Below, piece after piece: positions 37,684-53,620 of a DNA stretch of 64,000 nt (the stretch's first letter is position 1; every line of letters starts with the position of its first letter). Made by a program: the position numbers and the translations under genes. The notes beneath the pieces are model-generated. The model was not told the DNA's origin, searched no databases, and saw only the letters and a program-made list of their open reading frames with translations. The stretch lies in NCBI GenBank assembly GCA_035999765.1, contig CP108521.1:4464001-4528000 (forward strand), read 5' to 3'. The stretch is from Streptomyces sp. NBC_01231. GTDB taxonomy: Bacteria > Actinomycetota > Actinomycetes > Streptomycetales > Streptomycetaceae.

Positions 37684-37759
37684 GCCTTCGTAGCTCAGGG
37701 GATAGAGCACCGCTCTCCTAAAGCGGGTGTCGCAGGTTCGAATCCTGCCGGGGGCACCA
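37684..37759 (+). tRNA. tRNA-Arg (anticodon CCT)
   Basis: Full cloverleaf: acceptor GCCTTCG / CGGGGGC (with G-T pairs), D arm AGCTCAGGGGATAGAGC, anticodon stem CCGCT/AGCGG around loop CTCCTAA (anticodon CCT at 37717-37719), T arm CGCAGGTTCGAATCCTGCC..., encoded CCA at 37757-37759. It reads AGG codons. Its 3' half recurs at 42.1, 47.8 and 51.55 kb, so it is the integration target of the neighbouring elements. Confidence 0.97.
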
Positions 37760-37763
37760 GGCA

Positions 37764-37797
37764 AAAGGCCCCGGACCGATCATGGTCCGGGGCCTTT
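37764..37797 (+). terminator. tRNA-Arg terminator
   Basis: Perfect 14-bp arms AAAGGCCCCGGACC (37764-37777) and GGTCCGGGGCCTTT (37784-37797), loop GATCAT, starting 4 bp after the tRNA. Confidence 0.88.
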
Positions 37798-37814
37798 GAC
37801 ATCTACTTCTGACA

Positions 37815-38192
37815 TCAACGAGGGCGGTCACTCACAACCGGCCGCCGCGTAAGCAGCCGATCCATGTGGCTGATGGCCTCGCGCTGGGTGTCCTGCACGA
37901 CGTGCGTGTACACATCCATCGTGATCCCGATCTGCGAGTGCTCGAGGGCCTCCATCACGGCGCGGGACGCGACTCCGGCCGCCGTGAGGAGAGTGATCGG
38001 CGGCATCCGGCGCGGACCCGCGGCTGAGTCCTCCGCATCATCCGGCCCGGGCTCGGTGGCGGTGTGCTCGGCGGCGCGAGGGCCGCCGCCTGCGCGTTGC
38101 GCGCGGTACAGGGCCGGCTGCAACCTCGGGGATCGCCAGATCCGCTCCGGGCAGCAGGCTCGTGTACCTGTCGACCGCTCCTGGTCGGGCAA
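37815..38192 (-). pseudogene. Tyrosine integrase remnant (AICE/phage type)
   Basis: The last 65 or so codons read LLTAAGVASRAVMEALEHSQIGITMDVYTHVVQDTQREAISHMDRLL, the C-terminal catalytic block of actinobacterial tyrosine integrases: degenerate box-II region, HSQ (normally GHSQ; here EHSQ) and the nucleophile Tyr of MDVYTHV. Upstream codons do not continue as integrase (no RxxxG/HxLRH block), so most of the gene is lost. It lies immediately beside tRNA-Arg, where an integrase is expected in an integrated element. Confidence 0.8.
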
Positions 38193-38249
38193 CTGGCGGC
38201 TTTCCAGAAAGTCCGCTCGATGGCCTGCTGTTGGGCGATCCTGACCAGT

Positions 38250-38939
38250 TCACGCTGACGATCGTTCGCCGCTGTGGACGACCGTGATGAGGGGGTCGGG
38301 GCCAGGGGTCTCGAGTTCGTCGACCACGGCGACGGCCAGGTCCTCGGCGCTGATCCAGGATTGGCCGTCGGCGCTGATGAGCAAGGTGTCGCTGCCGCGC
38401 CGATAGCGGCCGGTCCGTTCGCCGGGTTCGAGCCGGGCCGGTGGACTCAGGTAGACGCAATCGGCATCGGCATGGGCCTGGCAGGTTCGCAGCTGAGCGA
38501 TTCCGGCGGAGGCGACGGCCTTGATTTCGGCGGGCACGTACGCCGGGTTGTCGGCGACCAGCAGATCGCGGTCACCGGGGCTGCGCAATGCGCCGGCGCC
38601 GCCGACCACGAGGACGCGGATCCCGAGGTGTGCGGCGATGTCCAGCACCGTACGGGTAGCGCCGACCAGGAACTCATCGTCGACCGGCGTGGTCCGCACG
38701 GTCAGTACGACGGCGTCCGCAGCGCCGTGGGAGGCGGAGCCTGCCAGCGCCTCGCGTATGGCGTGTGAGTCGTTCGCGTCGGCCGCGATCGGCGTCACAT
38801 TCGGGTTCCTCGGGTTCTCACTCGCGGGTTTCCGGGACAGAGCGATCACTTGGTGTCCGCGTGCACCGGCCTCGTTGATCACCCGGCTGCCGACCATCCC
38901 GGTGGCGCCCAGTACAGCGATCGTCATGCCTGTCTTCAT
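38250..38939 (-). CDS. NAD(P)-binding oxidoreductase, NmrA/atypical SDR-like
   Basis: 229 residues with the Rossmann start MTIAVLGATGMVGSRVINEAGARGHQVIALSR (GxxGxxG) and LVVGGAGALRSPG; it lacks a YxxxK pair, as in NmrA-like sensors and epimerase-like proteins such as YwnB. Could be a redox sensor or reductase; not resolved. Start ATG 38939 with GAAGGA upstream; it overlaps the EamA stop by 4 bp (ATGA), so the two are coupled. Confidence 0.8.
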   Translation of the reverse strand: MKTGMTIAVLGATGMVGSRVINEAGARGHQVIALSRKPASENPRNPNVTPIAADANDSHAIREALAGSASHGAADAVVLTVRTTPVDDEFLVGATRTVLDIAAHLGIRVLVVGGAGALRSPGDRDLLVADNPAYVPAEIKAVASAGIAQLRTCQAHADADCVYLSPPARLEPGERTGRYRRGSDTLLISADGQSWISAEDLAVAVVDELETPGPDPLITVVHSGERSSA

Positions 38940-39928
38940 CGGACCCGTCCTTCTCGTATGTGATCGTCGTGCATCTGGTCTTCTCGGATCTGGGCTTCTG
39001 CCGGCCTGCGGCGCGCCACGCGGCCCGACAGGTTCGGGGCATTGAGCTGCGCCGCGAGCAATGCGGCCAGGGCGAGGACGAAGCCAGAGGTCTGCAGCAG
39101 GCTCAGTGACTCGCCCAGGGCGATGCCGATGACGGCCGCGACCAGCGGGGACAGCAGCACCAGCGGTGCGGACGCGCCGACGGGCAGCTTTCCGATGCCG
39201 CGGAACCACAGCGTGGACGCGACCAGCCCACCCACGCTGCCGAGCCACAGGTACCCGCCGGCGGCTCCGGCGTCAATGTGCGGCGGCGCCCCCTCGATCG
39301 CGAGGGCGAGCGGGAGCAAGAGCAGGCCGCCCGCCGTCAGTTGCCAACCGGTCAGGGTCAGTGGACCGATACCCGCGGGAAGGCCCCACCGCTTGGTGAG
39401 GACGATCCCGGCGGCCATGGCGGCCGCACCACCGAGTCCGGCGACGACCCCGACGGCGTCCAGCCGGGCCTGCGGCCCCAGTACGACGAGTCCGACACCG
39501 ACCGCGCCGAGCACGCCCCAGGTCAATCGCCAGGCGGTAGGCCGGTCGTGGAGCAGCGCGACGGCCAACCCGGCGACCATCAGCGGCTGGGTGGCACCAA
39601 GAGTGGCGGCGACACCGCCAGGGAGTCGCTCCGCCGCCACGAACAAGAGGGGGTACAAGGCACCGATGTTGAGCGCGCCGAGGACGGTGGCCTTCCACCA
39701 CCAATCCCCGCGCGGGAGCACACGCGTGATGGCCAGCGCGAGCAGCCCGCCGGGCAGGGCGCGCAGCATCCCGGCGAACAGCGGATGCCCGGGCGGGAGC
39801 AGTTCCGTGGTGACGACGTACGTGGTGCCCCAGGCGGCGGGGGCGAGTGCGGTCAGTGCGACGGTGGCCACCTGCTGCGCGTACGGGATTCGCGGCGAGT
39901 CCGGTGCCCGCTCGGTCGAGGTATGCAT
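38936..39928 (-). CDS. EamA (DMT superfamily) transporter
   Basis: 330 residues with ten hydrophobic helices in two EamA halves (ALAPAAWGTTYVVTTELLPPGHPLFAGMLRALPGGLLAL in the first; LTLTGWQLTAGGLLLLPLALA in the second). Probably exports amino acids or metabolites (YdcZ/RhaT-like group). ATG 39928 gives the short MHTSTERAPDS head. First gene of a two-gene operon divergent from a LysR gene, which is its likely regulator. Confidence 0.84.
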   Translation of the reverse strand: MHTSTERAPDSPRIPYAQQVATVALTALAPAAWGTTYVVTTELLPPGHPLFAGMLRALPGGLLALAITRVLPRGDWWWKATVLGALNIGALYPLLFVAAERLPGGVAATLGATQPLMVAGLAVALLHDRPTAWRLTWGVLGAVGVGLVVLGPQARLDAVGVVAGLGGAAAMAAGIVLTKRWGLPAGIGPLTLTGWQLTAGGLLLLPLALAIEGAPPHIDAGAAGGYLWLGSVGGLVASTLWFRGIGKLPVGASAPLVLLSPLVAAVIGIALGESLSLLQTSGFVLALAALLAAQLNAPNLSGRVARRRPAEAQIREDQMHDDHIREGRVR

Positions 39929-39986
39929 GTGATGAATTCTCAGAACCAGGCAATCATGAGTCCAACACATGCTTGTCATCGCAGTC

Positions 39987-40907
39987 ATGAACCAGAACGA
40001 TGGCCGTGTGGATCTCCAGCAGATGCGCTACGTCGTCGCCGTGGCCGAAACCCGTAACTTCACCCGGGCCGCCGAGCGCTGTTTCGTGGTGCAGTCGTCG
40101 CTCAGTCACCGGATCGCCGGCCTGGAACGGGAACTCGGAGTCAAGCTGTTCGCCCGGTCCAGCCGCCGCGTCGAGCTGACCCCTGCGGGAGCGGCGTTTG
40201 TCGCCGGCGCACGCGAGTGCCTGGCCGCCGCCGACCGCGCGGCTGCCGACGCCGCCGCCGCTACCGGCGTGGTATGCGGCCGACTCGCCGTCGGCGTGAT
40301 CGTGACGACGGCTGCCGTCGACGTACCGGAGCTGCTGCAGCGGTACCGCGCCCAGCACCCGGCTGTCCACGTCGCCCTCCGTTCCGGACGCAGCGATGAA
40401 CTGGCGGCGGCGGTCCGGAACGGCGACCTGGACATCGCCTTCCTCGGCATGCCGGAGAGCGAACGGCCCTCCGGTGTGGAGTGCGTTGTTCTCGCTCACG
40501 ACGAGCACGTGCTGGTGGTGCCGGCCGGGCACCGACTGGCGGGCGTTTCCCAGGTCACGCTGCGGGAGATCGCCGAAGAGACGTTCGTGGACTTCGTGAG
40601 CGGGACGCCCGCCCGGGCCCAGTCCGATCAGGCGTTCGCCGCCGCGGGCCTGGTCCGCGACGTCGCGTACGAAGCCGGCGTCGTGGAGCTGATCACCCAG
40701 CTGATCGCCCGCGGGCTCGGCATCGCGCTGCTGCCGTCCGCGTTTATCCGACCGCGGGCCACTGACGACCCCGAACTGGCGCTGGTCCCGGTGGTTGACG
40801 GACCGCATCGCATCGAATACCTGGCGTGGAGCCGCTTCAACCCCAGCCCTGCCACCCGAGCGATGCTCGACATCCTCGGGGTCGGGCCGCCGTCACCTGT
40901 GACCTGA
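39987..40907 (+). CDS. LysR family transcriptional regulator
   Basis: 306 residues: N-terminal HTH VDLQQMRYVVAVAETRNFTRAAERCFVVQSSLSHRIAGLERELGVKLFARSSRRVELTPAG and a periplasmic-binding-like effector domain (GRLAVGVIVTT ... ITQLIARGLGIALLPSAFI). Start uncertain: ATG 39987 (used here) or GTG 40008, which gives the commoner (M)DLQQMRY start. Divergent from the EamA-oxidoreductase operon. Confidence 0.85.
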   Translation: MNQNDGRVDLQQMRYVVAVAETRNFTRAAERCFVVQSSLSHRIAGLERELGVKLFARSSRRVELTPAGAAFVAGARECLAAADRAAADAAAATGVVCGRLAVGVIVTTAAVDVPELLQRYRAQHPAVHVALRSGRSDELAAAVRNGDLDIAFLGMPESERPSGVECVVLAHDEHVLVVPAGHRLAGVSQVTLREIAEETFVDFVSGTPARAQSDQAFAAAGLVRDVAYEAGVVELITQLIARGLGIALLPSAFIRPRATDDPELALVPVVDGPHRIEYLAWSRFNPSPATRAMLDILGVGPPSPVT

Positions 40908-41235
40908 CCCGCGACGGCGGCGGGCGGGCCGCAGACGTGCACGTCGCGTTCGGTGATGTCGGGGGCCGGGTGGTGCAGGCTGAACGGCGGGCGCCGTGCT
41001 CGCCTGTCCGGCCGGTGAGCAGGTGGAGTCCACTTCGCAGCGCGACCATGTGGCGCACCTCGTTCAGCGGCATGACGTCGCCTCGCTGCGACCCGGTGCA
41101 GCACGACAACGTCGCCGGTCACCGCCTCCAGCATGGCCCGCACGGGCGTGAATTCCCACACCATCGGCGATCAGCACAGCGCCGGGCCGGGTCCGGTGAA
41201 GTTGGGTGAACGCCCCGCACCTCCCTCGACAAGGC
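40905..41235 (-). pseudogene. Ferredoxin-reductase-like (FNR) gene fragment, frameshifted
   Basis: Pieces of an FNR-type flavoprotein appear in different minus-strand frames, in the right order: GAFTQLHRTRPGAVLIADGVGI (like GPYGAFT...PGPVLLIAGGVGI), then TPVRAMLEAVTGDVVVLHRV, then DVMPLNEVRHMVALRSGLHLLTGRTGEHG, then APDITERDVHVCGPPA. These are the NAD-binding motifs of ferric-reductase/phenol-hydroxylase-type reductases. At least three frame changes make it a dead fragment. The rest of 40908-41334 holds nothing else. Confidence 0.65.
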
Positions 41236-41334
41236 GCGATGGGCGTGATCGAGTGCAGCGTCCCGGACGGATGGCAGACAGTACGCTGAGTCCAGTGGGA
41301 TCGGGTCCGCAGCACAGCGTCCAGGAGGTGCTTC

Positions 41335-41901
41335 ATGACGGCCGAGATGGTGGCTCCGGCGTGGATGCATGAGCAGATCACGGCGGAAGAGTACGAGTCC
41401 TGGTCCGAGGAGCAGTGCGCCGGTATCGAGATCGTGGACGGGATGGTCGTCGTGAGTCCGAGTGCGTCCAAGCGGCACAACCGGTTGGCCCGGATTCTGG
41501 CAAACGCCCTTGATGCGGCCGCGGGCCCGGCGTGGAACGCCGACACCGACTTCGACGTCCGGCTTCAGGACGTCCCGCTCACCAATCGCCGTCCGGACGT
41601 CATCGTGTACCGCGCAGACACGATCGACATCACCCCCACCCGCCCAGAGCACGTGCTGCTGGTCGCGGAGGTGGTGTCACCGGGATCGGAGACCACCGAC
41701 CGGATCGTGAAGGTCGACCAGTACGCCAAGGCAGGCATCGGCTTCTACTGGCGGATCGAGCAGGCCGCGACAGGCGTTCCTCTCGTGTACACCTACGTCC
41801 TCGACCCCGCGACGAAGACCTACCGGGACGGAGACGTGTTCACCGGCGTCCTCAAGGTAGCGGCCCCCTTCCCGGTGGAGATCGACCTGGGCCAGGTCTG
41901 A
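41335..41901 (+). CDS. Uma2 family (DUF820) restriction-fold nuclease
   Basis: 188 residues with the Uma2 pattern: ITAEEYESWSEEQCAGIEIVDGMVVVSPSASKRHNRLARILANAL, RRPDVIVYRADTIDITPTRPEHVLLVAEVVSPGSETTDRIVKVDQYAKAGIGFYWRIE. The PD-(D/E)xK-like residues are D of RRPDVIVY and E of VAEVVSPGS. These proteins are abundant in Streptomyces and cyanobacteria and are predicted endonucleases; targets unknown. ATG 41335 has AGGAGG upstream. Placed within the island. Confidence 0.85.
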   Translation: MTAEMVAPAWMHEQITAEEYESWSEEQCAGIEIVDGMVVVSPSASKRHNRLARILANALDAAAGPAWNADTDFDVRLQDVPLTNRRPDVIVYRADTIDITPTRPEHVLLVAEVVSPGSETTDRIVKVDQYAKAGIGFYWRIEQAATGVPLVYTYVLDPATKTYRDGDVFTGVLKVAAPFPVEIDLGQV

Positions 41902-42202
41902 CCCGCGCTCAGCAGCCGGCAGCGCGTGAGCGAACTGCCCGATACCGGGCGGCACGAGCTGGATCAAGTGGCTCGCCGTGCGGTTCTGATCAGGGGAAAC
42001 AGCAGCGCCAGGCAGCACCCGGCAAGGATTCGATCCCCCTCCTGAAGCGGTGTCCCGCCCGCGCCCTCCTCATCAGTGCCGCGGAAGTGGTGCCGCAGAG
42101 TGGCGTTCTCATCAGAACTCCTGAAGCGGGTGCCGCAGGTGCGAATCCTGCCGGGACACAGAGGTAGGTCCCCGCGGCAGCCCGGGGCGGTACGCCGGCC
42201 GG
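41902..42202. other. Gap holding tRNA-Arg 3'-end copies
   Basis: No gene. Contains a short copy CTCCTGAAGCGG (about 42038-42050) and the longer copy at 42118-42160. Reading the opposite strand of these copies gives the spurious peptide GRIRTC. Confidence 0.7.
42118..42160 (+). repeat. Degenerate copy of tRNA-Arg 3' half (att-like site 2)
   Basis: CTCCTGAAGCGGGTGCCGCAG followed by GTGCGAATCCTGCCGGGACACA: matches the tRNA from the anticodon loop to near the 3' end, with changes in anticodon loop, variable loop and T loop. Cannot fold as a tRNA because the 5' half is absent. Confidence 0.8.
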
Positions 42203-44311
42203 CTACGTGAGCGCGTCCGCTCCTCCTTCCAACCACACTCGCAGGTGGGACGGGCGCCCTGCATCCAGGTGCACGGTGTTCGTGGCCACAGCGGTGCGGC
42301 GGGCGGCTGCCTCCGGTTCGCCGGTGTTGGTGTTGACGTCGAAGCGGGGGAAGTTGCTGGAGGAGACGTCGAGCCGGATGCGGTGGCCGGCGGCGAACGT
42401 GTTCGCCGTGTCGGGGGCGGTGACCTCGATCTCGTACACCTCGCCCGGAACGAGCAACTCCGGCCTCTCGTAGGAACGGTGGAAGCGGCAGCGGACGATG
42501 CCGTCGGTGAGGTTCATGGCGAAACCGTGCGGATAGTCGGCGTTCGGCGGATGGACGTCGATCAGTTTGATGGTGAAGTCGGTGTCCGGGGCCGTCGTCG
42601 AGATGTAGAGCTTTGCCGAGACCGGGCCGGCCAGCACCACGTCCCGCTCCAGTGGCGGGGTGCTCAGGCTGATCACGTCCGGGCGGGAGTCCAGCGGAAG
42701 GTACGGTTCGCGCGCCCCGTACACGCGGGCGTCCGGGGCGTTCTGGTCGTATGCCCCGCCCGTCATCACCGGCTCGCCCGAGGTGACTTGGCCTCCCATG
42801 GTGGGCACCGGGTGGCGCGGGTCGAAGTCGTAGGTCACCGACGCGGCGGCAACGGTGGGCGGGGCGGTGGTGAGGGCTCCGTCGGTGGTGAGGTACAAGG
42901 CGACGGGAGCCGTGGACGCCGGCGGCCACCGGGTGTCGGTGTGCCATGCGCCGCCGTGCCGCATCCGCCCCGCCGCATCCCGTCGGCCGTCACCGCCGCC
43001 CATCAGGAAGTACTGGACGGCGGGGAGGTCGCCGAACTCCGCGCCGCCCTCCGCGCCGCCCTCCGCGCCGAACTCCGCGCCGTTCTCCGCGCCGCCGGCC
43101 CGCCCCACGCCGGCGTTCTCCGGATTCGCCCCGTCGCCCTCGTCCTCCCGACGCAGCGCCCGGTCGAACCAGCGGCGGCGGAACTCCAGGTACGAGGGGG
43201 CGAGGTTGCCGTCCAGTGTCGCCCGCGGGCCGAAGTCCACGTCTCCGGCGTACGTCTCGCAGCGGTGCCCGTGCGTCCACGGGCCCATGACCAGGTAGGA
43301 GGGTGCCGACTTCAACTCCCGCAGGGCGGTGAAGTTCTCGATGGTGGAGCGGACGTAGGGGTCGTACCAGCTGCCCATGTGCAGGCTCGGCGCGTCCGGG
43401 AAGCGCTCGTAGAAGCCTCGCCCGTAGATCGCCGGGTTGCGGTAGTAGTCCCCGAAGGTGTCCTGCCGCCACTGCTCCAGCAGGAAGTCCTCGTACGTCG
43501 ACAGGTGCCGCAGCGGCGTGCAGCCCGGCCGCCACGGCATCGCACCGAACCAGCCCGTCAGGTCCACGCGCCGCAGTTCCTCGGCCAGGACCGGATCCGC
43601 CGCGGCCTCCGGGCTCTGCACCGCATGCCGCAGTGCCCAGGTCACCTGCTTCAGCTCGAAGGCGCCGCCCATCCGCATCCCCGCGTCGTACGCCGAGGAG
43701 AAACCGCCCGAGTCCTGGAACATGGCGGCCAGCCCCGTCGTCCCCTCGGCCGCCGCGGCCGCCTGGACGTGGGCGGAGTAGGACACCCCCGTCATCACGA
43801 CCCTGCCGTCACACCACGGCTGGTTCCTGAGCCAGGCGATCGTGTCCGCCCCGTCCGGGCCTTCGCCGAGGTACTTCACGAACGTCCCCTCGGAGTCGCC
43901 ACGTCCCCGGCAGTCTTGGCGTACGACGTGGTAGCGGGCGTCGGTGAAATGCCGGGCGATGTCCTCGGGCTGCGGGACCGGCGCGTCGCTGCGGTCCTGG
44001 TCCGAACCGCGCTGCGCGCGCCGACCGTACGGGGTGCGCTCGAGGAGCACGGGAAGCGCGGGAAGCGCGGTCGCCTCCCGCTCGGGTGAGGTGGAGTACA
44101 GGTCGGCGGCGAGGTGGACGCCGTCCCGCACGGGGATGCGCAGGGTACGGCGCCACAGGGCACCGCCCTGGAGGGGTTCGGGCCTCTGGAGGGGTTCGGG
44201 TCCCTGGAGTGGGTCGGGCCCCAGGACGGGTTCGAGCCCCTGAAATGGGTCGGGCTCGGGTCCCAGGACGGGTGCGGGCCTGCGGGCGTGGGGGGTGTCG
44301 TACGAGGTCAC
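42203..44311 (-). CDS. CocE/NonD family hydrolase (X-Pro dipeptidyl-peptidase S15 fold)
   Basis: 702-residue alpha/beta hydrolase with C-terminal jelly-roll (PepX-C). IPVRDGVHLAADLYSTS and VVRQDCRGRGDSEGTF open the domain; nucleophile S177 lies in GVSYSA; WTHGHR probably carries the catalytic His; the C-terminal part has FTIKLIDVHPPNADYPHGFAMNLTDGIVRCRFHRSYE. Substrates in the family are acyl esters, cephalosporin esters or X-Pro peptides. Two repeat tracts: residues 17-50 (LGPEPDPFQG / LGPDPLQGPEPLQ units) and about residues 404-428 (GAEFGAEGGAEGG). Start ATG 44311. Confidence 0.87.
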   Translation of the reverse strand: MTSYDTPHARRPAPVLGPEPDPFQGLEPVLGPDPLQGPEPLQRPEPLQGGALWRRTLRIPVRDGVHLAADLYSTSPEREATALPALPVLLERTPYGRRAQRGSDQDRSDAPVPQPEDIARHFTDARYHVVRQDCRGRGDSEGTFVKYLGEGPDGADTIAWLRNQPWCDGRVVMTGVSYSAHVQAAAAAEGTTGLAAMFQDSGGFSSAYDAGMRMGGAFELKQVTWALRHAVQSPEAAADPVLAEELRRVDLTGWFGAMPWRPGCTPLRHLSTYEDFLLEQWRQDTFGDYYRNPAIYGRGFYERFPDAPSLHMGSWYDPYVRSTIENFTALRELKSAPSYLVMGPWTHGHRCETYAGDVDFGPRATLDGNLAPSYLEFRRRWFDRALRREDEGDGANPENAGVGRAGGAENGAEFGAEGGAEGGAEFGDLPAVQYFLMGGGDGRRDAAGRMRHGGAWHTDTRWPPASTAPVALYLTTDGALTTAPPTVAAASVTYDFDPRHPVPTMGGQVTSGEPVMTGGAYDQNAPDARVYGAREPYLPLDSRPDVISLSTPPLERDVVLAGPVSAKLYISTTAPDTDFTIKLIDVHPPNADYPHGFAMNLTDGIVRCRFHRSYERPELLVPGEVYEIEVTAPDTANTFAAGHRIRLDVSSSNFPRFDVNTNTGEPEAAARRTAVATNTVHLDAGRPSHLRVWLEGGADALT

Positions 44312-44351
44312 TCCCGTGACGCTAAGCAGTGGCCAGGATCATGGCGATCAC

Positions 44352-44369
44352 TTGACGTCATCAGGTCAA
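44352..44369. promoter_or_regulatory. Candidate operator upstream of CocE gene
   Basis: TTGAC-N8-GTCAA at 44352-44369 in the 275-bp divergent gap between the CocE and AbgT genes. Short arms, so tentative. Confidence 0.3.
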
Positions 44370-44586
44370 CTGTTCCGCCGGACGGTGACGGGGCCGGACA
44401 CGGCACCTACTGTCAGCGCAACCCGAGAGTGCTCCGCGTGCCCTCGCTGCGGATGGTGGTCCCGCGCGGCTCCGGGTCCCGTTCCGCACTGCTCGCGGCA
44501 CAGCCGCCACTCGCCCTCGTTTCCCCCTCCCCCTCCCCGTTTCACCCCCCTCCCCCGTTCTCTCCCACTCCTCACAGGAGGCCGCC

Positions 44587-46161
44587 ATGAGCGCATCCGA
44601 CACCCGCACCGAGGAGGTGCAGTCCACCGAGCCCGACGAGGGGGGCCGTGGCTCCCGGCTCCTCGACCTGGTCGAGCGCGCGGGCAACGCGCTGCCGCAT
44701 CCGTTCTGGCTGTTCTGGATCCTGTGCGGTGTCGTCGCCCTCATCAGCTGGGCGCTGAACACCTCGGGCCTGCGCGTCGAGGACCCCTCCTCGGGTGACC
44801 TGGTCGGCGTACGCAGCGCCCTGTCGGTGGACGCCGTACGGGACCTGCTCACCGGCGCCGAGGAGTCCTTCGTCACCTTCGGCCCGCTCGGCGTCGTGCT
44901 GATGGTGATGCTCGGTGTCGCGGTCGCGGAGCGTTCGGGGCTGTTCGAAGCACTGGCACGCCGCATGCTGTCGGGGCTGTCACCGCGCACCGTGGTGCTG
45001 GGCGTGGCGCTGGGCGGCGTGCTGGGGAAGTTCCTGTCCGACTCCGCGTACGTGGTCCTCATCCCGCTCGGGGCGGTGGCCTTCCGCGCCGTGGGCCGCT
45101 CCCCCATGCTCGGCATGATCGTCGCGTTCGTGTCCATCAACGCCGCGGGCGACGCCAATCCGCTGATCGCCCCTGGTGACGCGCTGTTCGCCTCCGTGGC
45201 CACCGAGGCCGCGCAGCTCGTCGACAAGGGTGTGGTGGTCCGCGCGACGGACAACATGTACTTCACGACCGTCTCGGCGTTCGTGCTGGCCGGCACCATC
45301 GCGCTGGTCGTGGACAAGATCCTCGCCAAGCGTGAGCACCACCTGGTCCCCGACGCGGACCTGGAGGCCGCCGCGGCGGGGCAGGGGGCGGCCGCCGGGG
45401 TCGACGACGCCACCGAGCTGCGGGCCCTCAAGCTGACCGGGCTGGCCGTGCTCGGCTACGCGACGCTGATCGTGCTCGCGATGCTGCCCGCCTCGTCACC
45501 GCTGCGCGGCGAGGGGGGCGCGATCGTGGAGTCGACCTTCATGAACGCCATCGCCGTCTTCCTCACCGTCTTCTTCCTGCTCATCGGCGCCGTGTACGGG
45601 CGGCTCACCGGGCGGATCAGGGGGAGCCGCGCGATACCGGAGTTCATGGCGGACGGAGTGCGCTCCATCGCCCCGCTGCTGGTGCTCTTCTTCGCCGTGT
45701 CGCAGTTCCTCGCCCTGTTCAAGTGGACCAACATCGCCACGGTCGTCGCGGTCGAGGGCGCGGACTTCCTCAAGCGGATGGGCGCGCCCACGCTGGTGCT
45801 GTTCATGCTGTTGATCGTCGCGGTCGCGCTGATGAACCTCGTCATCACCTCCGGTTCCGCCCTGTGGACCCTGGTCGCCCCGGCCCTGGTGCCGATGCTG
45901 ATGCTGCTCGGCACCAACCCGGCCACCACCATGGCGCTCTACCGCATCGCCGACTCCTGCACCAACTCCATCACCCCGATGAGCACCTCGTTCATGCTCT
46001 GTGTCGGCTACCTCCAGACCCTCCGCCGCAAGGCCGGCATCGGCACCCTGGTCTCCTTCACCCTCCCCCTCGCCATGATCATGCTGGCGGTCTGGGTGCT
46101 GCTGTTCTTCGCCTGGTACCTGCTGGGCGTCCCCCTCGGTCCGGGCGCGCCCGTGCGGTGA
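44587..46161 (+). CDS. AbgT family transporter (p-aminobenzoyl-glutamate type)
   Basis: 524 residues, about 12 membrane segments. Family signatures: NALPHPFWLFWILCGVVALISWAL, LGGVLGKFLSDSAYVVLIPLGAVAF, SINAAGDANPLIAPGDA, and NLVITSGSALWTLVAPALVPMLMLLGTNPATTMALYRIADSCTNSITPMS. AbgT members import p-aminobenzoyl-glutamate or export sulfonamides; direction not known here. ATG 44587 has CAGGAGG upstream. Followed after 22 bp by a regulator gene on the same strand. Confidence 0.9.
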   Translation: MSASDTRTEEVQSTEPDEGGRGSRLLDLVERAGNALPHPFWLFWILCGVVALISWALNTSGLRVEDPSSGDLVGVRSALSVDAVRDLLTGAEESFVTFGPLGVVLMVMLGVAVAERSGLFEALARRMLSGLSPRTVVLGVALGGVLGKFLSDSAYVVLIPLGAVAFRAVGRSPMLGMIVAFVSINAAGDANPLIAPGDALFASVATEAAQLVDKGVVVRATDNMYFTTVSAFVLAGTIALVVDKILAKREHHLVPDADLEAAAAGQGAAAGVDDATELRALKLTGLAVLGYATLIVLAMLPASSPLRGEGGAIVESTFMNAIAVFLTVFFLLIGAVYGRLTGRIRGSRAIPEFMADGVRSIAPLLVLFFAVSQFLALFKWTNIATVVAVEGADFLKRMGAPTLVLFMLLIVAVALMNLVITSGSALWTLVAPALVPMLMLLGTNPATTMALYRIADSCTNSITPMSTSFMLCVGYLQTLRRKAGIGTLVSFTLPLAMIMLAVWVLLFFAWYLLGVPLGPGAPVR

Positions 46162-46183
46162 GCCGTGGCCGTACGCTGACGGC

Positions 46184-47368
46184 GTGAGCATCGTCCTCGA
46201 CCTCGGAGGGCTTGGCCCCGCGGATCTCGTGGCCGGGCCCTCCGCGCTGTCGGAACTGATGGCGAGCCTGCACGTGCTCGCCGAACCCGAGCACCACCCG
46301 GAGGCCACCGACTGGACGGCCCGCGCCGCCGCGGCGGGACCCGCGCTGCACGACGAGTTGTCCGTGTTCGCCCCTCTGTGGGCCCGCTACCGCTGCCGCC
46401 TGTTCTTCCCCCGTACGGTGCCGCTCGCGACGAGCCTGGACGAGGAGTTGGCGGCCATCGCGGCGCTGACGGCCGAGGACTTCCTCGACCTGGTGGCGCC
46501 CGGGGTCCTCGGCACCAACACGCAGCTCGTGCCGCCGGCCCGGGAGCTGCGCGCGGGCACCGTCGCCGCGGAGGACTACGCGCGCCGCTGCCTGCGCCGC
46601 TCCTACGCCCGCGGTGAGCTGGCGCGACAGCTGGTGGCGGCACCGCTGGAGCTGCGGGACCGGCTGCTGGCGGTGCTGCGGGCCGCCGACACCGCGTTCT
46701 TCGCCGAGGACTGGCGCACCCTGCGCACGCCCCTGGAGGACCACGCGCGGGAGGTACGTCGCCGGCTGGCGGCCCTCCCCCTGGGGGTCTCCCCGGCCGG
46801 AGTCCCCCGGTCTCTGGCCCGGGAGACCCCCAGGGGGACGTCGGCCGGGGAAACCCCCCTCTCGCTTCGCTCGCCCGCGGATGTGCTCGCCGCGCTGCTG
46901 CCGACCGCGGCCCGGGTCGGGCCGGGGGAACGGGTCCGGCTGGACAAGCTACAGATCGACGAGGTGAAGGTGGCCCCGCGCCCCCTCGTTCTGGTCCCGT
47001 CCGCCCGGGTGTGGCCGCATCTGACGGTCAAGAACGAGTACCCGTCGTGCGTGGTGGTGCAGTACGCGGTGCGCGGCGCCACCCCGGCCGAGCAGCTGAC
47101 CCTGCGGGATCTGCACCACCGGCTGATGGCGCTGACCTCGCCTGCCCGGATGGAGCTGTGCCGTCATCTGCTGGGCGAGCCCATCACCACCTCGGAGCTC
47201 GCCGCCCGACTCGGCTCCAGCGAGCCACAGGTCTCCCGCGCCCTGCGCACCCTGCGCGACGCGGGCCTGGTGCGCTCCACCCGGGACGGCAAACTGGTGC
47301 GGCACCGGCTCGCCACGGACGTCATCCAGCGGCTGGGCCGCGATGTCCTCGCCACCGTGGCTCGGTGA
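46184..47368 (+). CDS. DUF5937 / ArsR-type HTH regulator
   Basis: 394 residues. N-terminal DUF5937-like region (SIVLDLGGLGPADLVAGPSALSELMASLHVLAEPEHHPEATDW), C-terminal ArsR winged helix (LTSPARMELCRHLLGEPITTSELAARLGSSEPQVSRALRTLRDAGLVRSTRDGKLVRHRL). Start GTG 46184, 22 bp after abgT. Residues about 198-230 (LPLGVSPAGVPRSLARETPRGTSAGETPLS) are coded by an inserted palindrome and are unlikely to belong to the ancestral protein. Confidence 0.8.
   Translation: MSIVLDLGGLGPADLVAGPSALSELMASLHVLAEPEHHPEATDWTARAAAAGPALHDELSVFAPLWARYRCRLFFPRTVPLATSLDEELAAIAALTAEDFLDLVAPGVLGTNTQLVPPARELRAGTVAAEDYARRCLRRSYARGELARQLVAAPLELRDRLLAVLRAADTAFFAEDWRTLRTPLEDHAREVRRRLAALPLGVSPAGVPRSLARETPRGTSAGETPLSLRSPADVLAALLPTAARVGPGERVRLDKLQIDEVKVAPRPLVLVPSARVWPHLTVKNEYPSCVVVQYAVRGATPAEQLTLRDLHHRLMALTSPARMELCRHLLGEPITTSELAARLGSSEPQVSRALRTLRDAGLVRSTRDGKLVRHRLATDVIQRLGRDVLATVAR
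46777..46837. repeat. In-frame palindromic insertion inside the regulator gene
   Basis: CCCCCTGGGGGTCTCCC (46777-46793) and its exact complement GGGAGACCCCCAGGGGG (46821-46837), 27-nt loop. A second nested pair (CCCCGGCCGGAGTC / ...GTCGGCCGGGG) flanks it. It keeps the reading frame. Confidence 0.8.
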
Positions 47369-47770
47369 ACCAGTGAGGAAAGCGTGGGCTGCGGAACGCC
47401 CCCGGCCCGGCCTGGAACCCTGCGTCAGCAAGGCCATGGGCCACATCCACGCCTTGAACGGCTGGTTCAGGTAGAGCTGCGCAGTGCTGCGGGCCCGCCG
47501 CGCTTCGGGCGTGCGACGAGCGCACGAACGGGCACGGGAAATCGCGCTCTTGCTGGAAGGGGTTAGGCCTGTCCGGACTACGTCGCTGTCGTACGAGTGC
47601 GGCTACGTCGGTCCGTCCGACATTCGCCCGAGCTCCCCGGGCCCGCAGTCAGCTCGAGCCGCTCCTGCGTCAGCGGCCCCGGCGGCGTGGCCGCGCAGAC
47701 GATCGAGGGCCCCGACACCCTGCTGTGTGGCGCCTTGGTCGCCCCCAAGGTCTGTGCGGTGCTCAGGGCC

Positions 47771-47815
47771 TCTCCTGAAGCGGGTGTCGCAGGTTCGAAT
47801 CCTGCCGGGGACACA
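47771..47815 (+). repeat. Near-perfect copy of tRNA-Arg 3' half (att-like site 3)
   Basis: Over 45 positions starting CTCTCCT it differs from tRNA-Arg (37713-37757) by only about two bases (A to G 3' of the anticodon, G to A in the acceptor). No CCA follows (ACACAGAAAG). No 5' half. Confidence 0.88.
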
Positions 47816-47820
47816 GAAAG

Positions 47821-47858
47821 AGGGCCAGCTCAGGAGGGTTTCCTCCCAGGCTGGCCCT
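47821..47858 (+). terminator. Hairpin following att-like site 3
   Basis: AGGGCCAGC / GCTGGCCCT outer 9-bp arms with inner GGAGG / CCTCC, 6 bp after the tRNA-Arg copy, at the position where a tRNA terminator would be. Confidence 0.7.
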
Positions 47859-47943
47859 TCGTCGTGTTCGGGCCCGGGCCACACTCATGCCACTCATGCC
47901 ACTCGGATGACACATCACTCCTTGCTGATGGCCTCTCCCCCCC

Positions 47944-48156
47944 GACGGCGTGAACTCCCCAGGCGTGCCGCAGCCGTTCGGCCGAGGCGGCGACGTCGGC
48001 GGGTTCCTGCCCGGGGGCGAGCCGCAGACGAAGCCGGAGCCCGGTCGAGGTGGGGCGGACGATTCCGCGACGCGGCGGGATGGGCCGGACCTCCCGTCGG
48101 GTGGTGGCCTTGACCGCCAGAACCCGCAGTCGGGAGGGCGCCACCGTCAGGCCCAC
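47944..48156 (-). pseudogene. Fragment of FtsK/SpoIIIE-type conjugal transfer protein
   Basis: 71 codons read MGLTVAPSRLRVLAVKATTRR ... GIVRPTSTGLRLRLRLAPGQEPADVAASAERLRHAWGVHAV. This matches the N-terminal part of Streptomyces plasmid/AICE Tra (FtsK/SpoIIIE) proteins, where RPT.xG.r.r.r..pGq...d....ae.LrhawgvhaV precedes the ATPase domain. The ATPase itself is absent, so it is a relic. Basis is pattern memory; moderate certainty. Confidence 0.55.
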
Positions 48157-48372
48157 TCAGTACCCCCGAACACCTCGACCAGCGCATCCGACGCGGCTTA
48201 CGCCTCGTCCAGTACCGCAGTCACCTCATAGATGGCTGCCTCGCCGAGACCGGCCTGACCATCGGACCCGCCTGATCACCGACACGACACCACGAGTTCA
48301 ACCTCAAGTAGAGGAGTTCGAGAGGCCGATGGAGAAGCAGCCGACCGAAGTCCGTGCGGCCCGAGGGGCCCC

Positions 48373-49101
48373 TCAGGCCGTCATCAGCACCGCCAGGGCG
48401 CGGTCCATTGCGGCGTTGAGCTCTTCCGGAGCCAGCGGCAGACGGGACTTGACGTCCCGACTCCACTGGTCGGCGAGGACCTCGGCGGAGCCCGCCTCGA
48501 CACCGTCGAGCGCCGCGTCGGCCAGGTCCGACGGAGCGATCTTGTCCACGGGCCAGCCCGCGGCCATGTCGGTGTCGGCCAGGCCGAGGTGTACCGCTGT
48601 GACGAGCGTGCCCTGCTCGGCGAGCTCCAGGCGGACGCCGTTGGTCATGGCCCAGGCGGCGGCCTTGGTCAGGTGGTAGGCATTGGCGCCCTTGCCCCCG
48701 AACCACGACATGGCGGAGAGGACGTTGACGATCGCGCCCCCGCTGTTCCTGGCGAGCGCCGGCGCGAACTCCCGGATCATTCCCAGGTGGCCGAACATGT
48801 TGGTCTCCAGCTCGTGCCGCACCACGTCCAGCGAACCGGTCACCAGGTCGGTCCCCGTACTGATTCCCGCGTTGTTGATGAGTAGCGAGACGTCCGGGGC
48901 GGCCTCGGCGGCGGCCCTCACGGATGCGGGATCGGTGATGTCGAGGGGCAGCACCTCGACCCCGGGCAGGTCCACGGTCTCCGGTCGGCGGGCCGTAGCG
49001 TAGACCGTGCGGGCGCCCCGTTCGAGCAGGCGCTGGGCGAAGGCGCGGCCCAGGCCGCGGTTGGCTCCGGTGACAAGGGCGACGGAGTTGTTGATATCCA
49101 T
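48373..49101 (-). CDS. Short-chain dehydrogenase/reductase
   Basis: 242 residues, classical SDR: VALVTGANRGLGRAFAQRLLERGA (TGxxxGxG), LLINNAGI, and catalytic Ser with Y-x-x-x-K in SAMSWFGGKGANAYHLTKAAAW. NAD(P)-dependent reduction of an unknown carbonyl. ATG 49101 is the start; the -10-like TAGCGT (49114-49109) lies just 7 nt before it, so the transcript may be leaderless. Divergent from a MerR gene. Confidence 0.9.
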   Translation of the reverse strand: MDINNSVALVTGANRGLGRAFAQRLLERGARTVYATARRPETVDLPGVEVLPLDITDPASVRAAAEAAPDVSLLINNAGISTGTDLVTGSLDVVRHELETNMFGHLGMIREFAPALARNSGGAIVNVLSAMSWFGGKGANAYHLTKAAAWAMTNGVRLELAEQGTLVTAVHLGLADTDMAAGWPVDKIAPSDLADAALDGVEAGSAEVLADQWSRDVKSRLPLAPEELNAAMDRALAVLMTA

Positions 49102-49108
49102 GTCCTTG

Positions 49109-49143
49109 ACGCTAGAACCTGACGTCAGCGTCAGAGGCAAGTG
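49109..49143. promoter_or_regulatory. MerR-type promoter/operator between SDR and merR
   Basis: On the minus strand TTGCCT (49140-49135), 20-bp spacer, TAGCGT (49114-49109). The spacer carries the dyad CTGACG-TCAG-CGTCAG (49119-49134). An over-long spacer with a dyad is what MerR activators act on. Confidence 0.65.
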
Positions 49144-49177
49144 CTGGTCGTCAGGGCCAGGGGTGAGGGGAATCACC

Positions 49178-49555
49178 ATGACTGTCACAGTGGCCGCGAC
49201 CGAGCGGTTGATCCGCATCGGCGAGGTGGCACGGGGTGCCGGCGTCTCGGTGCGCGCCGTGCGCTACTACGAGCAGCAAGGGCTGCTCATCGCGGAGCGC
49301 AGCCCGTCCGGCCAGCGCCTGTACCGGCAGGACGCCATCCCCCTGGTCCGCTTCTTCCAGGAGATGTTCGCCGCCGGCCTCACCAGCCGAAGGATCTCCG
49401 AACTCCTTCCGTGCTGGGACGCCGGGCACACCGACGCCGAGCAACGAGCCATGCTGCGAGCCGAGCGCGAGCGCATCCAGGCCAAGATCGACGACCTGCA
49501 GGCCACCCTGGACCACCTCGACGAGGTCATCGCCATCACGGACACGCACCCGTAG
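49178..49555 (+). CDS. MerR family transcriptional regulator
   Basis: 125 residues: MerR HTH RIGEVARGAGVSVRAVRYYEQQGLLIAERSPSGQRLYRQDAIPLVRFFQEMFAAGLTSRRISELLP, then a coiled-coil dimerisation helix (ERIQAKIDDLQATLDHLDEVIA). No effector Cys cluster, so a small-molecule type. ATG 49178 is the start. Likely activates the divergent SDR gene. Confidence 0.9.
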   Translation: MTVTVAATERLIRIGEVARGAGVSVRAVRYYEQQGLLIAERSPSGQRLYRQDAIPLVRFFQEMFAAGLTSRRISELLPCWDAGHTDAEQRAMLRAERERIQAKIDDLQATLDHLDEVIAITDTHP

Positions 49556-50277
49556 CAGCATGCGAACGTTGCACCTCTCGACCCATGTTCCGCTCACCTC
49601 GCACCACAAGCGCACCAGGTCGAGCGGGGAGCAGCGGTGAAGAGCGCCGAGCCGAGTGAGGCCACGCTACGGTCGTTTGCCCAGTTCAACACCGAGACCG
49701 CCCTCAAACGCCCGCAGCTTCCCAAGCTGAGGGCTCAGAGCCGGCGCTCCGCTCATTCCGTCGCTCCTTCTCCTGATCTGGCATGCCCCCAGCAGGAGGT
49801 GCTCCCACCAGGGCTGACGCCGGTGATGGAGCACTGCCGGGTCCGCGGCTCAACCTCGCCCACCGGTCGCTGCTGCTTCCACGCGTCGCAGTCCGGGCAC
49901 TGGACCAGCGGCTCCCCCAGGAGGACGTGAAGGCGAAACCGGTCTCGCGCCACTCCTGCGCGGCGAGCGGACGCTCCCGGTCCTGCTCCTCGCGGTGCGG
50001 CTCCAGCAGCCGGACCAATGCACCGGGCACGCCGATCACCCGGAGGGCGGCCCGCGATGTGATGTGTCCGGCTCCTCGGTGGAGCCCGAATGGTCCGTGT
50101 AGGCCGAATAGGTAGGTTCATCGGACTGTTCGAGGGGCGGGCCGATCACCCCTGATGCTGCGCCGCCCGGCCGGGGCACCACATGGGGGATCACTGGGTG
50201 CTCACTCCGTGCCGAGAGAACGACGTGAGGGCGTACCCCTTTCCAAACATGTGTGCTGGAAGGCCAGGAGGAGCCAG
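49556..50277. other. 720-bp stretch without a clear gene
   Basis: A frame from GTG 49637 (KSAEPSEATLRSFAQFNTETALKRPQLPKLR...) and an opposite-strand frame containing QCPDCDAW both look protein-like for 30-50 codons and then degrade, so decayed genes are likely. Neither could be assigned. Confidence 0.5.
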
Positions 50278-51231
50278 ATGCTCATCGAAGTAGGCAGGAG
50301 CCTGCCGCGCCGCTGGGTTGCGTCGGCGACGGTAGCGGGAGCTGTAGCGGCAGTCGGCCTGACCGGAGTGGTCCCAGCCGCGGCTGCCCAGGTGACCACC
50401 GCGGTGAGCTGCAGCGCCAACCCCGGCGCCCTGCAGCCCGCCATCACCGCCGCCTCGCCGGGAGACACCCTGCTGGTGAGCGGGAGCTGCACCGGCCCCT
50501 TCACCATCGACAAGAACCTGACACTGAGGGGCGTCAGTAGGGCGGTGCTCGACGGCAACCAGGCAGGCTCCACCGTCACGGTCGGCAGCGGAGCCCAGGT
50601 TCTCCTGGACCGCCTGGTCCTCACCCATGGCAGCGCTGCGTCCGCCGGCGGCGGCATCCACAACGAGGGCACGCTCACTGTCACCAACTCCGCGGTGAGA
50701 GACAACACGGCGCCATCAGGCGCGGGAGGCGGCATCCACAACCTGGGCACGCTGACGGTCGTCAGCTCCACGGTGAGCGCCAACTACTCCCTCGGCGCCG
50801 GCGGCGGCATCAACAACAACGGATATCTCACGGTGCGTAGCTCGAGTGTGTTCGGCAATTCCGGAGACAACGGCGGAGGCATCTTCAACTATCTCGCCGG
50901 CCAAACAGTCGCGCTGATCCAGTCGTCGGTGCACCACAACACCGCGAGGGTGAGTGACGGCGGCGGCCTCCTCAACTACCAGGGCGAGATGACGGTCTCC
51001 GGCTCCACGGTGTACAGCAACACCGCCACCTTCGGAGGCGGCATCTGGAACGGAGGCACGCTGACGGCGACCCGTTCCACCGTGCTGTCCAACACGGCGA
51101 CGGGCGGCCCCGGCAGTGGCGGCGGCATCTACAAAGCCGGCGGCACCGTGGCCCTGGACCGCTCCGTGGTGCGTAGCAACACCCCGGACAACTGCGCTCC
51201 GCCCGGAAGTGTCCTGGGCTGCACGGGCTGA
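50278..51231 (+). CDS. Secreted right-handed beta-helix repeat protein
   Basis: 317 residues. Signal peptide MLIEVGRSLPRRWVASATVAGAVAAVGLTGVVPAAAA (cleavage near AAAAQ), then about nine imperfect turns of the type GGGIHNxGTLTVTxSTVxxNTA, the Pmp/parallel beta-helix pattern found in pectate-lyase-like folds. Two Cys pairs close the ends. No catalytic residues can be named; could be a surface adhesin or polysaccharide-binding protein. ATG 50278 has GGAGGAG upstream. Confidence 0.8.
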   Translation: MLIEVGRSLPRRWVASATVAGAVAAVGLTGVVPAAAAQVTTAVSCSANPGALQPAITAASPGDTLLVSGSCTGPFTIDKNLTLRGVSRAVLDGNQAGSTVTVGSGAQVLLDRLVLTHGSAASAGGGIHNEGTLTVTNSAVRDNTAPSGAGGGIHNLGTLTVVSSTVSANYSLGAGGGINNNGYLTVRSSSVFGNSGDNGGGIFNYLAGQTVALIQSSVHHNTARVSDGGGLLNYQGEMTVSGSTVYSNTATFGGGIWNGGTLTATRSTVLSNTATGGPGSGGGIYKAGGTVALDRSVVRSNTPDNCAPPGSVLGCTG

Positions 51232-51309
51232 GCACCGCCGTACAGACCTGGAGACACCGTCGCCCACCCGCTCGCCTACCTTCGGCCGCAGGACGGCAAC
51301 TAGCAGCTT

Positions 51310-51353
51310 TGGCAAGCGGGTTGGGGGCAACACCTCACGAGTTCGCATCTCGT
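51310..51353 (+). repeat. tRNA-Ser-like 3' half (relic)
   Basis: GGCAAGCGGGTTGGGGGCAAC followed by ACCTCACGAGTTCGCATCTCGTGTCGTCCGC: long variable arm typical of tRNA-Ser/Leu, then a T arm with ACGAG/CTCGT stem and loop TTCGCAT. No 5' half. Probably a footprint of an att site from another tRNA. Confidence 0.6.
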
Positions 51354-51372
51354 GTCGTCCGCAAGAGCCTCA

Positions 51373-51436
51373 CCGGGCAGGTCTTTACGAAGGGCCCCGC
51401 CGTTCGCGGTGGGGCCCTTCGTAAAGACCTGCCCGG
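51373..51436. repeat. 29-bp near-perfect inverted repeat
   Basis: Arms 51373-51401 and 51408-51436, one G-T type mismatch, loop GTTCGC. The inner part resembles a terminator (AAGGGCCCC...GGGGCCCTT); the outer CCGGGCAGGTCTTTACG is unusual. Confidence 0.9.
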
Positions 51437-51552
51437 CCTGTTTGGCCGAGGACATCCCCGAGGCGGCGAGCGAGTGCCGGTACTGCGCCGGCCAGCAGTC
51501 GTCTTCGGGTGCGCCCGCCTGGCAGGCCCCCGTTCCATCGAAGCCCCAGATC

Positions 51553-51574
51553 ACGAATCCTGCCGGGGCACAGA
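51553..51574 (+). repeat. Short tRNA-Arg 3' fragment (att-like site 4)
   Basis: ACGAATCCTGCCGGGGCACA: T-arm 3' strand and acceptor end of tRNA-Arg with one base lost. Confidence 0.7.
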
Positions 51575-51583
51575 GAAACACCT

Positions 51584-51626
51584 CGCAAGAGGCCCTCCCG
51601 TCCGGCGGACGGGAGGGCCTCTTGCG
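51584..51626 (+). terminator. Hairpin following att-like site 4
   Basis: Perfect 19-bp arms CGCAAGAGGCCCTCCCGTC (51584-51602) and GACGGGAGGGCCTCTTGCG (51608-51626), loop CGGCG. Confidence 0.85.
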
Positions 51627-52008
51627 GTTGCGGCACGCATACGGCGCACATGCTCGTGAGCGCGGTGGTGGGAGCCGTGCCAGACGACCGCGACTTGGTA
51701 ATGCGCCCTTCTCACACCCTGGTTATGGTTGACACGAAGTGAATGCGCAGAACGCATCTCTGACGGGCCCGTAGATCGGTCATTGCCCTTCGTCGTGTGC
51801 TCTGTCTCCGAGTGCCACCCGGCCACCGACCGGCCGCGAACATGCCGCGGCCTCGCCGTGATGCGCCACGTCCACCTGGACTCCGCTCCCCACGCCCCGT
51901 CCCTGCCGCAGGCCGGGGCGGCGAGTTCTGGCCGGGTCGGCAAGAGGCCCGCGACCCTTCCTCTCGCGGGCTGCGGGCTCGGCGGGAGGACACCACAGAG
52001 GAGAAGCG

Positions 52009-52428
52009 ATGGGCAGCACTGTGAACCTGGCCTACGACTACCCGGTCCTCGGAGCCTTCTGGACGGTCATGTGGATCTTCCTGTGGATCCTGTGGATCTT
52101 CCTGCTCTTCCGCGTCGTCGTCGACATCTTCCGCGACGACTCCCTGAGCGGCTGGGCCAAGACGGGATGGCTGGTCTTCACGATCGTCCTCCCCTTCCTG
52201 GGCGTCTTCGTCTACGTCATCGCCCGGGGCAAGGACATGGGCAGGCGTGAACAGGAGCACACCAGGGCCAAGTTGGAAGAGACGGACCGCTACGTCCGCG
52301 AGTCCGTCGGCGCCACCGGCCCCGCCAGCGAGGCGGACCAACTCGCCAAGCTCTCGGAGATCCGGGCCCGCGGCGACATCTCCGACGAGGAGTTCCGCCG
52401 GGCAAAGGAGAAGGTCCTCCATTCGTAA
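52009..52428 (+). CDS. Small membrane protein with PLDc_N-like helices and SHOCT domain
   Basis: 139 residues: two N-terminal membrane helices (FWTVMWIFLWILWIFLLFRVVVDIF and GWLVFTIVLPFLGVFVYVIAR) of the PLDc_N type, a charged linker, and a C-terminal SHOCT motif (LAKLSEIRARGDISDEEFRRAKEKVL). Common in Streptomyces; SHOCT is an oligomerisation/nucleic-acid-related small domain, role unknown. ATG 52009 has GAGGAG upstream. Confidence 0.85.
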   Translation: MGSTVNLAYDYPVLGAFWTVMWIFLWILWIFLLFRVVVDIFRDDSLSGWAKTGWLVFTIVLPFLGVFVYVIARGKDMGRREQEHTRAKLEETDRYVRESVGATGPASEADQLAKLSEIRARGDISDEEFRRAKEKVLHS

Positions 52429-52591
52429 CCGCAGGCAAGGCAAGACACGTCAGGAGGGGAGAGCCCGGAGTTGAGCAGGCCCTGCTGGAGATCGGTCTTC
52501 GGTCACCCTGGTGATGCACACCCGAACCCGTACGGCGTCCTGAGCGGTCGGTCGGGATGCGATGTGGTTCGACCCGTTGGATGGTGGAGTC

Positions 52592-52876: not shown

Positions 52877-53009
52877 TCCGGCGAAGCCGCTCCGTCCACC
52901 GGGTCTCCGGGACGGTCCGGGCCCGGTGTCGGTGGAGTGATGCCTCCTGCTGGGACTACCCCCTGCTGGGATTACGCGGGTTCTCCGGGCCGGATCCCCG
53001 CGAAAACAT

Positions 53010-53088: not shown

Positions 53089-53172
53089 CGATGCCCCGAT
53101 TCCCGAGGGCAGGAGGGTGTCTTCTCCGGCGTAAATGCGGAACCGTCTGCTCCCCCGGAGTCGGGGCACGCG

Positions 53173-53556: not shown

Positions 53557-53579
53557 GCAAGAGCGCTAAGCCCTCCGCC

Positions 53580-53619: not shown

Positions 53620-53620
53620 G

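Follow-up and report, generated by a model that had tools for sequence, protein, structure and literature searches.

The window analysed here is the whole 64,000-bp stretch at positions 4464001-4528000 of the 11.34-Mb, single-contig genome of Streptomyces sp. NBC_01231. Its sole tRNA gene, tRNA-Arg(CCT), is followed over 14 kb by partial copies of its own 3' half, which alternate with gene cassettes and relics of mobility genes (Table 1). Reading away from the tRNA, the order is an R1 arm and an integrase tail, a truncated attachment-site (att) core closing a unit with a Uma2 gene, site 2, and then cassette C; beyond it lie site 3, followed by an R2 arm and a Tra relic, and site 4, followed by an R3 arm. 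Here the core is the part of the tRNA from nucleotide (nt) 32 to about 74, and a right arm is the sequence that follows a core. The results described below indicate that these 14 kb are very probably a decayed accretion array, built by repeated insertion of integrative elements at one tRNA gene.

Table 1. Features of the tRNA-Arg(CCT) locus in window coordinates (ORF, open reading frame; aa, amino acid).
Feature	Position	Strand	Basis and remarks
tRNA-Arg(CCT), target gene	37684-37759	+	ARAGORN; core = nt 32 to about 74 (37715-37757)
R1-type right arm with terminator hairpin	37760-37838	+	Class R1
C-terminal relic, R1-type tyrosine integrase	37839-37994	-	tblastn 87% aa; 18 relatives' proteins match
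Cassette A: NAD(P)-binding protein, EamA transporter (minus), LysR regulator (plus)	37995-40915		Pfam
Uma2 unit: upstream block 40919-41238, Uma2 gene 41335-41901, L0 arm to core	40919-42038	+	Pfam Uma2; conserved unit in relatives
Truncated fifth att core, ends Uma2 unit	42039-42054	+	16 identical bases, one gap; placed by homology
Small-gene relic, cluster c49, 21 residues	42063-42125	-	tblastn 90%, E 1e-9
Site 2 att core	42118-42155	+	35/38 identical to tRNA nt 32-69
Cassette C: X-Pro dipeptidyl-peptidase-like protein (minus), AbgT transporter, DUF5937 regulator	42203-47368		Pfam
Site 3 att core	47770-47814	+	43/45 identical to tRNA 3' half
R2-type right arm with hairpin	47815-47941	+	Class R2; 87.5% over 128 bp to fragment flank in G277
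Tra relic, 71 residues	47944-48156	-	93% aa to 496-aa protein of L117
Cassette D: short-chain dehydrogenase (SDR, minus), MerR regulator (plus)	48157-49555		Pfam; 97% DNA match in G221
Repetitive secreted-looking ORF, called beta-helix in the earlier note	50155-51231	+	ORF call; no Pfam family at E 0.001
Site 4 att core remnant	51554-51571	+	18 identical bases, one base missing; supported by flank
R3-type right arm with hairpin	51572-51680	+	Class R3; 82% over 112 bp to flank directly behind tRNA of G170

An earlier note on this DNA had proposed that the 3' half of the tRNA recurs in the same orientation at sites 2, 3 and 4, and alignment bears this out. Against tRNA nt 30-76, the local alignment scores are 61, 80 and 31, respectively, to be compared with best scores of median 23, 95% point 28 and maximum 39 in 200 random regions of equal length (first-order Markov, both strands); sites 2 and 3 thus lie far outside chance. 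Site 4 is accepted despite its weak core because its flank matches, from the first bases, flanks lying directly behind the intact tRNA-Arg(CCT) genes of relatives (best match in genome G170, E 5e-24). All four copies counted in that note (the tRNA end and sites 2-4) are real, but a fifth, the truncated core, had been missed; its score of 22 is not significant alone, and it was placed because the same Uma2 unit of relatives ends there in a full core. The hairpins noted behind sites 3 and 4, as behind the tRNA, can be read by eye directly from the sequence. ARAGORN called a CCT tRNA at one of the eight own-genome match loci, that of the tRNA gene itself, and no further core was recognised past site 4 in the rest of the window and the next 19.9 kb. 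An accretion array is recognised by at least two cores in the same orientation behind the target gene, and the locus holds sites 2, 3 and 4 and the truncated core.

The same pattern is found across relatives, from which tRNA-Arg(CCT) loci of up to 20 kb each were fetched. Of 101 sequences screened, 13 were dropped for want of a tRNA with at least 93% identity (L152 and L163 among them have one at about 91%), and 88 loci with the full tRNA, window included, were kept; L137, L138, L154 and L157 end at contig ends. Downstream 3' fragments on the same strand are present at E 1e-4 in 48 of the 88 loci (one fragment in 32 loci, two in 11 and three in 5; 69 fragments), and they share their edges: 51 of the 69 start at tRNA nt 32 and 59 end at nt 74-76. 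No locus has an opposite-strand fragment at E 1e-4, a minus-strand match in L097 (nt 46-74, 90%) having passed a looser cut only, and no upstream fragment was seen in the 88 loci, a result that is weak outside the window, where only about 1.5 kb in front of the tRNA are included. Fragments occur in 39 of 63 loci picked for shared DNA versus 8 of 24 loci of same-genus relatives; these rates refer to 80 genomes chosen for sharing DNA with the window and to a comparison set of 36 same-genus relatives, 12 of which were unfetched or below the identity cut. Copies at the same places in all relatives, the outcome that the earlier note had named as incompatible with its proposal, are not what we see, as 40 of the 88 loci have no fragment in the fetched stretch and the positions vary by species.

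A mechanistic indication comes from the sequences behind the cores. Of the 157 core-following sequences, 29 are singletons and the others form 12 classes of at least two members, 11 of which occur both behind intact tRNAs and behind fragments (intact tRNAs/fragments: R0, 12/21; R1, 20/5; R2, 12/11; R3, 10/3; R4, 4/4; R5, 3/2), the exception being R10 with three tRNAs and no fragment. The flanks thus reassort around a fixed core, as predicted for site-specific recombination mediated by an integrase. In the window, the earlier note's expectation that relatives would have the tRNA joined directly to the sequence after each site holds for site 3, the R2 sequence of which follows 12 intact tRNAs and 11 fragments, site 3 itself included, and for site 4, with R3 behind 10, but not for site 2, the flank of which follows the tRNA in no examined locus. 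The sharing behind sites 3 and 4 extends over only about 110-130 bp, and these sequences are therefore read as element ends, not as a long chromosomal flank. Such a comparison of exchanged flanks detects decayed att footprints too short to stand alone.

An empty and an occupied site can also be compared directly, genome G315 (L143) being empty and genome G165 (L108) occupied, with matches on both sides of the tRNA. From tRNA nt 32 onward, L143 1417-10997 matches L108 10607-19901 in pieces, the four long ones of which are 94.7-96.8% identical, and L108 has an insert of 9,034 bp between its tRNA core (1573) and a fragment core (10607), with an R0 arm at the left and a Uma2 gene at the right end.

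Integrases stand beside the arms themselves. One protein was checked next to each of arms R0, R1, R2, R3 and R5, and all are tyrosine integrases (PF00589), only 22-32% identical between types. An integrase-cluster ORF lies less than 3 kb behind the tRNA in 31 of the 88 loci and has at least 360 residues in 18, counts that may include wrong members, the cluster (c0) having been built by single-linkage BLAST with five members checked in Pfam; ORFs in the fetched loci were called by a rule of length and codon composition. Locus L100 contains an intact actinomycete integrative and conjugative element (AICE) between the tRNA and a downstream core, with genes for an integrase, an Xis-like helix-turn-helix (HTH) protein (HTH_17), RepSA (E 2.6e-152), an FtsK/SpoIIIE translocase and a GntR/UTRA regulator. 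Beside the R5 arm of L097 (G231), an ORF of 578 aa oriented away from the tRNA (1632-3368 in tRNA orientation) looks like a tyrosine integrase with a GntR-type HTH domain behind it.

In the window, both mobility relics proposed in the earlier note, an integrase C-terminus beside the tRNA and a Tra-like stretch near site 3, were confirmed by comparison with relatives' proteins. The full-length relative of the integrase relic carries PF00589, and the L100 protein equivalent to the L117 protein matched by the Tra relic is FtsK/SpoIIIE by Pfam. AICEs of the pSAM2 type are characterised by an integrase gene next to att and by a RepSA-type initiator with an FtsK/TraB translocase; next to att the window has the C-terminal relic only, and when relatives' proteins were compared with 37760-56000, no Rep stretch was detected and Tra was limited to its relic. 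DNA in common with R1 elements ends at about 37995, the start of cassette A, and at 47941/47944 the Tra relic takes over from the R2 arm, which places two deletion or replacement junctions within a few bases.

Referring to these findings, a predicted order of events can be given. Several families of integrative elements, AICEs among them, would use the 3' end of the tRNA from nt 32 as their recombination core. A tyrosine integrase would join the attP of a circular element to the tRNA core, and the element would restore the 3' half of the tRNA with its own copy together with its own right arm, the R1 arm behind the window tRNA presumably having been brought by the last element in this way. The older 3' end and its flank would be pushed downstream as a same-strand fragment, and the next element would repeat the process at the tRNA. 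Later deletions may have removed the integrase, Xis and Rep genes and most of the Tra genes, with cargo genes remaining. Repeated insertion at tRNA-Arg, as the earlier note had suggested, is supported by the fragment edges at nt 32, the reassortment of flanks, the G315/G165 pair and the integrase and Tra relics.

Two other origins have to be weighed against serial insertion. One is that a segment with the tRNA was duplicated in tandem or recombined by ordinary homology, without any integrase. In its favour, the copies form direct repeats across 14 kb, and arrays of this kind can also grow or shrink by recombination between their repeats. Such a process would, however, copy the 5' half of the tRNA or its flank as often, yet most fragments start at nt 32, and it is contradicted by the reassortment of left and right core flanks between species and by the G315/G165 insert, which is bounded by core copies. 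We therefore regard it as extremely improbable. That some layers were left by temperate phages rather than by AICEs is less remote, although still unlikely. The phage VWB would be a model for such layers if, as we take it, its target is this CCT tRNA. It integrates into a tRNA-Arg with 46 bp of attP/attB identity (PMC13346255), and Microbacterium phage Min1 has an 84% match to the tRNA that overlaps its integrase gene. On the other hand, the sole mobility relics found in the window, the integrase tail and the Tra stretch, match AICE proteins. When a phage collection was searched with the tRNA, most of the matches listed (20 of 591 records) were annotated tRNA genes; the matches listed for a plasmid collection (20 of 156 records) carry no gene there, and no named element for the tRNA-Arg(CCT) site is among the phage and plasmid matches listed.

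Several observations weigh against an accretion array or limit how far it can be dissected. The core score of site 4, taken alone, is borderline relative to chance, and the right flank of site 2 matches no right-arm class. Among the right arms, 29 of the 157 stand outside any class. The pair of empty and occupied sites comes from two other species, and none is from the window's own species. Several genomes, including that of the window (at 6265572-6265614), hold fragments with the same arm classes at places distant from the tRNA. With no Rep, Xis or full integrase in the window, the assignment of elements to layers is uncertain and partly guesswork.

AICE accretion at a Streptomyces tRNA-Arg is already published, and the window is a further, decayed example. 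Choufa et al. 2022 (PMC9513070) described it in a Streptomyces population, where AICEs and defective AICEs of different families, with integrases of 39-88% identity, and an old remnant element are stacked between direct repeats; the likeness lies in several elements with different integrases at one tRNA-Arg, likened as such and not as the CCT gene, and the difference in that the published array keeps functional elements, whereas the window has relics only. In S. avermitilis, Sav3708 and Sav3728 are AICEs that lie in tandem at a tRNA-Arg (Ghinet et al. 2011, PMC3218068); they likewise combine integrases of different subfamilies, as in this hot spot, but are intact enough to be named, whereas the layers of the window are decayed. 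Cassette C, with an att core at either end (sites 2 and 3) and neither an integrase nor a transfer gene in its interior, has the gene content of a cis-mobilizable element (CIME), a form reviewed for streptococci (PMC5704250) in which integration and transfer genes are lost, att is kept on both sides, and another element integrates beside it. The Uma2 unit of relatives has the same shape, a likeness of sequence in both cases, but differs from the streptococcal CIMEs in being very small and recurring across many species. The 46-bp core of VWB is close to the 43-45-bp core here; VWB is a phage vector system, likened by its tRNA-Arg target and core length (PMC13346255).

The Uma2 unit is the less ordinary part of the array and the one to follow. 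When named genomes were scanned with the window's Uma2, the best 80 of 374 loci (86-99% protein identity) were mostly in Streptomyces, and also in Nonomuraea, Actinomadura, Frankia and Nocardia. Behind the Uma2 stop codon there is a tRNA-Arg core in 29 of these 80 (at 161-165 bp in 20 of the 29), and 51 have no core behind Uma2, so that the gene also exists without a core. The full tRNA is present in 26 of the 80, on the same strand in 25. Behind the 29 cores ending the unit, the arm is R0 in seven, R1 in five, R3 in two, R2, R4, R5 and R10 in one each, and unclassed in 11; the next core upstream carries R0 in 23 of 42 cases. In nine named records from nine different species, the unit measures 1.02-1.52 kb from core to core, with R0 at the left in eight, and its stretch from the left tRNA end to the Uma2 start, at 249-740 bp, leaves no room for an integrase gene. 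The window's own unit has no left core and a truncated right one. The Uma2 relatives in Nonomuraea, Actinomadura, Frankia and Nocardia (L217, L249, L252 and L260) reach 86-95% aa identity, and the unit of L217 still ends in a truncated core.

Uma2 diverges on average by 4.9%, versus 11.4% and 16.0% for two flank genes, in 18 genomes chosen by similarity to the window's Uma2, which lowers the Uma2 distances. In Mantel tests, Uma2 is uncoupled from the two flank genes (r 0.02 and 0.07, p 0.41 and 0.34), whereas the flank genes correlate with each other (r 0.51, p 0.0005), and the ratio of nonsynonymous to synonymous polymorphism (pN/pS) of Uma2 is 0.163 (uncorrected, 17 full-length genes). These values show Uma2 to be under purifying selection and point to exchange of the gene between species.

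How the smallest units arose is more evenly contested. It is conceivable, though in our judgement somewhat doubtful, that the Uma2 unit is an integrative element of actinomycetes in its own right, with little more than one gene and no integrase, which moves with integrases borrowed from AICEs that share its core, much as non-autonomous transposons use the transposases of others. A conserved Uma2-family nuclease gene would lie between an R0 arm at one end and the L0 arm with the tRNA-Arg core at the other, with 1.0-1.5 kb between cores in the smallest forms; it would be retained through some benefit to the element or the host, and the window would then hold a damaged copy. The small units have, by our estimate, about an even chance of being instead the ends of larger Uma2-tailed elements that suffered internal deletion in place, immobile alone, the gene spreading with the large forms. 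Such same-ended larger forms exist, with 4.0-10.4 kb from R0 arm to Uma2 end in L195, L199, L201, L203, L206 and L216 and 9.03 kb in L108; the nine small units show little conservation in the spacer that joins the R0 arm to Uma2, and behind one R0 arm, in L122, stands an integrase-cluster member of 64 aa. The recurrence of the small form in nine species with R0 mostly at the left speaks for a distinct element, as do purifying selection and divergence independent of the chromosome, but both are compatible with deletion too. Among the titles and abstracts listed in literature searches on Uma2 in Streptomyces and on Uma2 with integrase and tRNA, none describes an att-ended Uma2 unit, a negative that holds for these searches only. 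The recurrent unit makes integrase borrowing by minimal elements directly testable.

The hot spot is larger than the 14 kb of the earlier note, which stand as the stretch of repeats: the variable zone covers about 37-39 kb and ends beyond the right edge of the window, the conserved right flank (clusters c13 to c7) starting 38,955 bp behind the tRNA in the window genome. We take the proteins of this flank to be a glutathione peroxidase and a GPP34 protein. In 71 of the 80 genomes, tRNA and flank are on one contig (the nine with them on different contigs were left out), and the flank lies downstream of the tRNA in 69 of the 71, at 6.4-140 kb (median 28.7 kb), and on the other side in G277 and G272. 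The block c13-c7 is inverted relative to the window arrangement in 38 of the 69, and the interval behind the tRNA seems prone to inversion. At the scale of the genus, one 43-45-bp tRNA end, used by distantly related integrases, collects foreign genes, with 6 to 140 kb between tRNA and flank.

As to the cargo, cassette A has a 94% DNA match with identical edges behind the tRNA of G009, and the block of cassette C is present elsewhere in relatives' genomes. Several other species have blocks with 95-97% DNA identity to the SDR/MerR block of cassette D (G337, 95%, besides G221), often far from tRNA-Arg; the block is probably a recently spread gene pair.

The distant fragment of the window genome (G000:C1:6265572-6265614, L034; L112 10573-10615) is a minus-strand 3' fragment of tRNA-Arg(CCT) whose right arm is R2 and whose left arm is GATCGAA; it lies on the opposite strand to the tRNA at a distance of 1.76 Mb, and the 3 kb scanned around it contain no tRNA. 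An origin-symmetric inversion fits poorly, since the tRNA and the fragment lie on opposite sides of dnaA (5.222 Mb) but at unequal distances from it, 0.72 and 1.04 Mb, respectively. A second site common to far fragments found no support either: their arm classes are the same, but no more than 271 bp of L112 are shared with any one far locus. L176 and L177 have about 8 kb in common in front of their fragments, which lie 64 and 55 kb downstream of their own tRNAs. Finally, a 28-base tRNA-Arg 3' end without a surrounding tRNA gene at G000:C1:2966307-2966334 (L039) is, by eye, nearer to the CCG tRNA.

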